64,000 nucleotides of DNA. It comes from Flavobacteriales bacterium. GTDB lineage: Bacteria; Bacteroidota; Bacteroidia; CAIKAF01. The notes beneath the pieces are model-generated. The model was not told where the DNA came from. It made no database searches and worked only from the letters and a program-made list of their open reading frames with translations. Positions 14,814 to 15,566 of this stretch are shown piece after piece (the first letter of the stretch is position 1; every line of letters begins with the position of its first letter). Where the stretch lies: the NCBI GenBank assembly GCA_018401695.1, contig JAGYKD010000001.1:1366016-1430015 (forward strand), in the 5' to 3' direction. A program made the position numbers and the translations under genes.

Positions 14814-15566
14814 TCAAGTGGTATACACAGAGTTGAATAAAACGTAGTCGGTGGTAAGGTCGCTGCCCCAGGCGGTAGCCTCTTCTGAGCCATCCCCGGC
14901 AAAGGTGTCGGTGGTAAGTATGGCATTGGCGCAAAAAGACCCTGCCGAACTTTTGGAAGCCACTTTAGGGGTATTTTCTTCAATGCCTTTTACATCGGTA
15001 AGCAATACCAGCCGGTGCACCTTAAGGGCGGCAGCCGGGTGGGCTGCGAACAAATCGCCGTTGATGTTGCAAGCTTTGCCGTCGGGAGCCAAGCCCAAGC
15101 AAGCAAATACAGGACAAATGCCTTGTTGGAGCAAGGCATGCAGCCAATTGGCTTGAACTTCTGTAATGTCTCCAACCCTTCCAAAAGGCATAGGTTCTGT
15201 GGATGGTGGAGGAAGCTTCCGAAATTCGGCTTTAATGGTATGGGCGTCGAGTCCGCTTAAGCCTATGGCGCGCAGCCCGGCCCGATTTAGGTGTTCTACC
15301 AAAGGTTGATTTACGTCTTGAATTAAGGCCTGTACAATGATAGGCAGGGCTTTTTCTGTGGTGATTCGGTGACCCTCTGCAAAGGGTAGGCTAATGTCGT
15401 GTTCTTTTAGGGCTTGAGCGATGAAGGGTCCGCCTCCATGGACTAGAATGGGAGGATCGCTCCATTGGGCCAATATTTGGGCAACTTCCTGCATTAAGGC
15501 AGGACGTGTCATGGCATTGCCTCCGTATTTAATGAGGCAAGGCGGGGATGTTTTGGAATGCTGCAT
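14814..15566 (-). CDS. argB: Acetylglutamate kinase-like protein with an ArgJ-derived C-terminus (chimera)
   Basis: Residues ~10-200 follow ArgB closely: LIKYGGNAM (phosphate-binding), LVHGGGPFIAQAL, EGHRITTEKAL, GLSGLDAHTIKAE, CNINGDLFAAHPAAAL and LVLLTDVKGI. Normal ArgB then continues ~70 residues with a GGMxxK ATP-site segment, which is absent here. Instead comes KGIEENTPKVASKSSAGSF plus CANAILTTDTF, resembling the ArgJ segment just before '(A)I(L/M)TTDT', followed directly by GDGSEEATAWGSDLTTDYV and a final FNSVYTT, resembling the last residues of ArgJ. The frame is open throughout, ~250 residues. Kinase activity is doubtful because the ATP-site half is lost. ATG at 15566 chosen; a TTG at 15611 would overlap the promoter box. 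It is not next to other arg genes. Confidence 0.75.
   Translation of the reverse strand: MQHSKTSPPCLIKYGGNAMTRPALMQEVAQILAQWSDPPILVHGGGPFIAQALKEHDISLPFAEGHRITTEKALPIIVQALIQDVNQPLVEHLNRAGLRAIGLSGLDAHTIKAEFRKLPPPSTEPMPFGRVGDITEVQANWLHALLQQGICPVFACLGLAPDGKACNINGDLFAAHPAAALKVHRLVLLTDVKGIEENTPKVASKSSAGSFCANAILTTDTFAGDGSEEATAWGSDLTTDYVLFNSVYTT

Follow-up and report, generated by a model that had tools for sequence, protein, structure and literature searches.

The question raised by this locus is what is represented by an uninterrupted open reading frame (ORF) that reads, in a single frame, as part of the kinase ArgB followed by two separate pieces of ArgJ. A preliminary description of the window (the whole 64 000-nucleotide stretch of Flavobacteriales DNA analysed here) offered three options: a relic, a regulator or an enzyme with a new activity. 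Our comparisons establish that the ORF originated by a double deletion of an argB-argD-argC-argJ operon, and we consider it, with a probability of about 0.8, to be a young, non-functional remnant of that operon.

The ORF runs without interruption from an ATG at 15566 to a TGA at 14814 (Table 1). An alternative upstream TTG start would give 265 aa; in the congeneric genome G003 the upstream extension contains a TAA, and thus the ATG is the likely start. When ArgB and ArgJ profiles were aligned separately, each part matched its own family, which bears out the description of ArgB and two ArgJ pieces in one frame. Pfam AA_kinase matches residues 10–203 (8e-34), and the NCBIfam argB model TIGR00761 matches residues 11–199 (profile 3–185 of 231) with 157.5 bits, above the cut-off of 151.3 though the profile is only partly covered. 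No ArgB match continues to the C-terminus; it stops at around 199–204. Residues 224–250 match the very end of both Pfam ArgJ (PF01960, 3.1e-6, profile 351–377 of 377) and NCBIfam ArgJ NF003802 (profile 374–400 of 400), and the scores of the ORF are under the cut-offs of PF01960 (26.6 vs 32 bits) and TIGR00120 (ArgJ; 20.3 vs 298). Against the intact G003 proteins, residues 1–193 are 79% identical to ArgB and the ArgJ pieces have 93% aa identity. The middle ArgJ piece had been called short; it is present, but is longer than described, extending from VKGIEE (ArgJ ~122) to TTDTFA (153), and the final segment consists of the last 28 ArgJ residues. The motif LTTDYV was considered as evidence of gene conversion but was ruled out as such, being normal for ArgJ proteins of this subfamily.

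Table 1. Features of the fused ORF and its surroundings in the window
Feature	Position	Strand	Basis or remark
Fused ORF: ArgB N-lobe, ArgJ middle piece, ArgJ C-terminus	14814..15566	-	250 aa; profile and G003 comparison
ArgB-derived part, residues 1–194, without C-terminal ATP lobe	14985..15566	-	Profiles and G003 comparison
Junction 1, argB/argJ microhomology (T)GTAAAAGGC, encoding VKG	14984..14994	-	DNA comparison with L010
ArgJ middle piece IEENTPKVASKSSAGSFCANAILTTDTFA	14898..14984	-	~94% identical to G003 ArgJ 122–153
Junction 2, then ArgJ C-terminus and stop	14814..14897	-	Profiles and G003 comparison
-7-like motif, Bacteroidota type, TATCTTTG	15609..15616	-	Fits TAnnTTTG
metG-like gene (methionyl-tRNA synthetase), downstream neighbour	12484..14571	+	Named by reading; syntenic
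Small hotdog/thioesterase-like gene, upstream, divergent	15998..16387	+	Named by reading; syntenic
~165-nt element	14602-14773	-
~165-nt element	15748-15918	+
~165-nt element	21587-21753	-
~165-nt element	27262-27424	+
~165-nt element	30356-30520	-
~165-nt element	47672-47843	-
~165-nt element	49702-49874	+
~165-nt element	61948-62115	-

The likeness of the ORF to N-acetylglutamate kinase ArgB (TIGR00761; PDB 2bty, 1gs5) lies in the N-lobe, with its KYGGNAM, VHGGGP and GHRITT motifs and with NINGD in place of NINAD. It differs from ArgB in having no C-terminal ATP lobe. In total, 79 ArgB residues (the ATP lobe) and 223 ArgJ codons are missing. In the alignment the GGM and PK columns of the ArgB motif GGMxPK are empty, so that its lysine is absent, and the deleted ArgJ codons (~154–376) include the self-cleavage site KGSGMIHPNMATM with the nucleophilic threonine. 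Since the catalytic parts are gone, both kinase and ArgJ activity should be lost. The AlphaFold2 model (33 alignment rows; mean pLDDT 78.9, pTM 0.77) is confident for the ArgB N-lobe (residues ~4–201, pLDDT ~90–98), whereas residues 202–250 fall below 50, with the tail at ~30; the alignment holds no ArgJ rows and hence lends this region no support from relatives. The closest PDB relatives are acetylglutamate kinases, and every match ends by ~196–206. Profiles, alignment and predicted structure thus agree with the earlier view that the ATP-binding segment has been lost.

The origin of the ORF is evident from G003, one of five congeners searched, which carries a full-length argB-argD-argC-argJ operon (L010, 7082–11355; genes identified by NCBIfam). 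It lies between metG and the thioesterase-like gene, that is, between the neighbours of the fused ORF itself, which have 93.8% (metG-like) and 97.7% (thioesterase-like) aa identity to their G003 counterparts. The site, the flanking genes and the order of the surviving pieces are all the same; the difference is that G003 has four full-length genes, whereas the host of the fused ORF has lost argD, argC, 79 ArgB residues and most of ArgJ. A deletion and fusion in an ancestral arg cluster had been proposed from the window, in which the loss of argD and argC, once present between argB and argJ, had gone unseen; the intact syntenic operon confirms that proposal. Upstream of the ORF, a promoter motif had been recognized, and TATCTTTG indeed fits TAnnTTTG, the -7-like consensus of the Bacteroidota; TACCTTTG occupies the same place upstream of the intact G003 argB.

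With intact orthologues at the same locus, two junctions account for the structure of the ORF. At junction 1 the sequence follows argB through TTACCGAYGTAAARGGC (LTDVKG) and then argJ from GTAAAAGGCATTGA (VKGIE), and GTAAAAGGC, a typical microhomology, is a stretch of ~9–10 nt common to both parent genes, in phase in each. Approximately 2.83 kb was lost here: 79 codons of argB, the genes argD and argC, and ~120 codons from the beginning of argJ. At junction 2, ArgJ ...TDTFA is joined to AGDGSEEATAW... with a homology of just 2–3 nt; the gap, previously put at ~220 residues, is exactly 669 nt (223 codons) and in frame. By chance the frame would be kept in about one-third of single deletions, or about one in nine for both. 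A 12-nt repeat, CTTACCACCGAC, occurs in both ArgJ pieces and was considered as the cause of the second deletion, but the junction does not lie on it.

The locus is also bracketed by two inverted copies of a GC-rich element of ~165 nt. These were ruled out as deletion ends, because both are intact and orthologous in G003. Other copies occur elsewhere in the window (Table 1) and in L125–L134 and L010, each with conserved GGAAAGCCCGGAG ... GAGGACTTGCA flanking a long variable arm. Searched with a covariance model built from nine copies, 264 kb of the host genome yielded 29 full-length elements (E ≤ 1e-3), i.e. around one copy per 9 kb, nearly all intergenic and with no orientation preference. In a structure-fitted alignment of 31 matches including fragments, 90% of the cells are paired, compared with 53% in shuffles; 32 of 32 pairs have changed on both sides in the alignment fitted to the structure, and RNAalifold on an unfitted MAFFT alignment of nine elements gave compensatory change in 27 of 32. 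G-U pairs make up only 21 of ~832 cells, and this scarcity hints at a DNA palindrome rather than RNA. An Rfam search returned nothing above threshold. The signal of the element is strong in G003 and marginal in G005; 17–35-kb samples from G001, G004 and other genera lack it. A REP/MITE-like DNA hairpin family is one possibility and an RNA another, and the element may perhaps be worth more than the fused ORF. Two further repeats were observed: ~19 tandem copies of the 36-bp GTAAAGACGGAATGCCTTCCGTCTCTCAGTGCTGAG, with an internal palindrome, lie at 11724–12386 between a der/engA-like gene and metG, and in G003 the C-terminal half of an ORF at 237–941 of L010 is made up of successive HHSPFI-type repeats, probably the conceptual translation of a short tandem repeat.

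The enzymes encoded by argBDCJ lead from glutamate to ornithine by the acetyl cycle. The host genome (2.99 Mb, 99.8% complete, 19 contigs) was searched for an intact argB or argJ elsewhere, and no second full copy of either was found; its other amino-acid kinases are aspartokinase-like and, adjoining a tsf-like gene, PyrH-like (named by reading). It has no argC match above the cut-off, and is presumably unable to make ornithine by this route. No argH match exceeded the cut-off in 16 genomes of the family (best 68.6 vs 279.5 bits), the weaker matches probably being other fumarase-superfamily lyases. Ornithine carbamoyltransferase (OTC) was not found either, and the sole OTCace_N match in the host (G000) and in G003 reads as PyrB. 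Because argH and OTC appear to be lacking in its family, the G003 operon should supply ornithine only, and most likely serves ornithine rather than arginine synthesis, judging from gene content.

ArgJ is missing from the remaining four congeners and from the ten genomes that represent other genera of the family, and in none of these does an ArgB match reach the cut-off. Across the class ArgJ is uncommon: a search of 395 sampled genomes with an ArgJ query found it in five, the remnant in the window included. G088, a genome from a distant family of the class, shares the order argB-argD-argC-argJ (L123, 2911–7198), with an ArgJ identity of 67%. The common ancestor of G000 and G003 may plausibly have gained the operon horizontally. 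The same fusion, looked for in relatives as suggested in the preliminary description, was found in none of 15 genomes of the family or order, in none of the 395 class-sample genomes and in none of the best 80 GTDB matches. One candidate (L080, match over 6–250) turned out to be an ordinary ArgB beside an intact ArgJ. A search of the open-licence literature found no report of an ArgB–ArgJ fusion of this kind.

The ratio dN/dS, a measure that had been proposed for this ORF, was calculated pairwise against G003: the ArgB part gives 0.10, the ArgJ pieces 0.07 and neighbouring genes 0.02–0.09; dS is 1.36 for the ArgB part and 0.27–1.16 for the neighbours. Stops, frameshifts or dN/dS near 1, the signs of relaxation, were not seen, but the pairwise values cover divergence from both before and after the deletions. 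Among the ArgB sites that differ, the fused ORF and G003 are each nearer the outgroups (44 ArgB proteins) at 17; none of the strongly conserved sites has been lost from the fused ORF alone, and both proteins are equidistant from G088 ArgB (82 of 190 identical). The G000 branch (0.18) is not significantly longer than that of G003 (0.116; rough binomial test, p ~0.11), and outgroup HMM scores of the N-part are 193 v 207 bits. One substitution, L177P, lies in a predicted helix (170–181) at a position hydrophobic in relatives and is a mild sign of relaxation.

In simulated neutral decay the frame remained stop-free in 41% of cases at d = 0.04, and in 2–9% when indels were included at assumed rates; the dN bound limits the neutral d to at most ~0.02–0.10. 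Since a neutral frame should break by d ~0.04 and dS is 0.27–1.4, a neutral remnant must be recent. The fused ORF is therefore either young compared with the split from G003 or under constraint, which would mean non-kinase selection if it is old. These two cases cannot be separated, since the divergence measured may for the most part have arisen before the deletions.

The constrained case would be a working non-kinase protein, whose N-lobe dimerises or binds N-acylated glutamate and which acts as a sensor, buffer or regulator. The low dN/dS, the N-lobe that is predicted to fold, the preserved -7-like motif and the two in-frame deletions are consistent with it, as is the fact that the only conserved N-lobe residues lost are those changed in G003 too; recent deletions, however, would leave the same conservation. 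Moreover, the remainder of the pathway has gone, so that the usual ligand should not be produced, the tail has no predicted structure, no other searched genome has the fusion, and L177P and the slightly longer (n.s.) G000 branch lean towards relaxation. As a recent remnant has a much higher prior, and as it was the open frame that drew attention to the locus, we regard functional retention as unlikely, including its specific form in which a non-catalytic, NAG-binding or dimerising N-lobe with an ArgJ tail was kept as a new small regulator, fused during loss of the pathway. Of the options first offered, the relic is thus the best; the regulator keeps a small share, no decay being visible, and the new enzyme activity finds no support, given a tail at pLDDT ~30 and a fusion found nowhere else.

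That the fusion is known from a single genome might also point to an assembly or binning chimera, absent from the organism itself. We consider this very improbable: the locus lies on a 1.57-Mb contig and is syntenic with the congener on both sides, junction 1 falls precisely on microhomology, both junctions are in frame, and every part has its orthologue in one operon, at a divergence normal for different species. A bifunctional ArgB–ArgJ enzyme or a new enzyme activity is the least credible reading, since, although arginine-pathway fusions such as NAGS–NAGK exist (chains 3s6g and 4kzt among our structure matches), the ArgB ATP lobe and the 223 ArgJ codons with the self-cleavage region are missing and the ArgJ tail is unmodelled.

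We therefore return to the deletion remnant, the history of which is best read as follows. The ancestor of the host species and G003 had a stand-alone argB-argD-argC-argJ operon between metG and the thioesterase-like gene. One deletion fused argB to argJ at the microhomology and took out the ATP lobe together with argD, argC and the first part of argJ, and a second removed 669 nt within argJ, including the self-cleavage region; both kept the frame by chance. The product, if translated, would consist of the ArgB N-lobe followed by a disordered tail, and neither phosphorylation nor transacetylation would be expected of it. The recent age and non-function of the remnant are probable on this evidence. 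Young bacterial pseudogenes are rapidly removed, according to a previous study (PLoS Genet 2010 e1001050, PMC2916853), and the observation of the present remnant in a single species is in keeping with this. As in bacterial pseudogenes formed by deletion, such as those treated in that study, we have here a disrupted and apparently recent remnant of a dispensable pathway; the present case differs from them in that one open frame still joins two genes.

Automatic annotation would call this ORF a short acetylglutamate kinase. The locus clearly illustrates how a pathway lost through a microhomology-type deletion can leave behind a chimeric frame that is still open. An argBDCJ operon that probably serves ornithine alone occurs in one congener, whose lineage appears to lack argH and OTC, and the operon recurs in a distant family of the same class. 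Were the frame under selection, it would provide a rare view of a new non-enzymatic protein arising from the scraps of enzymes.
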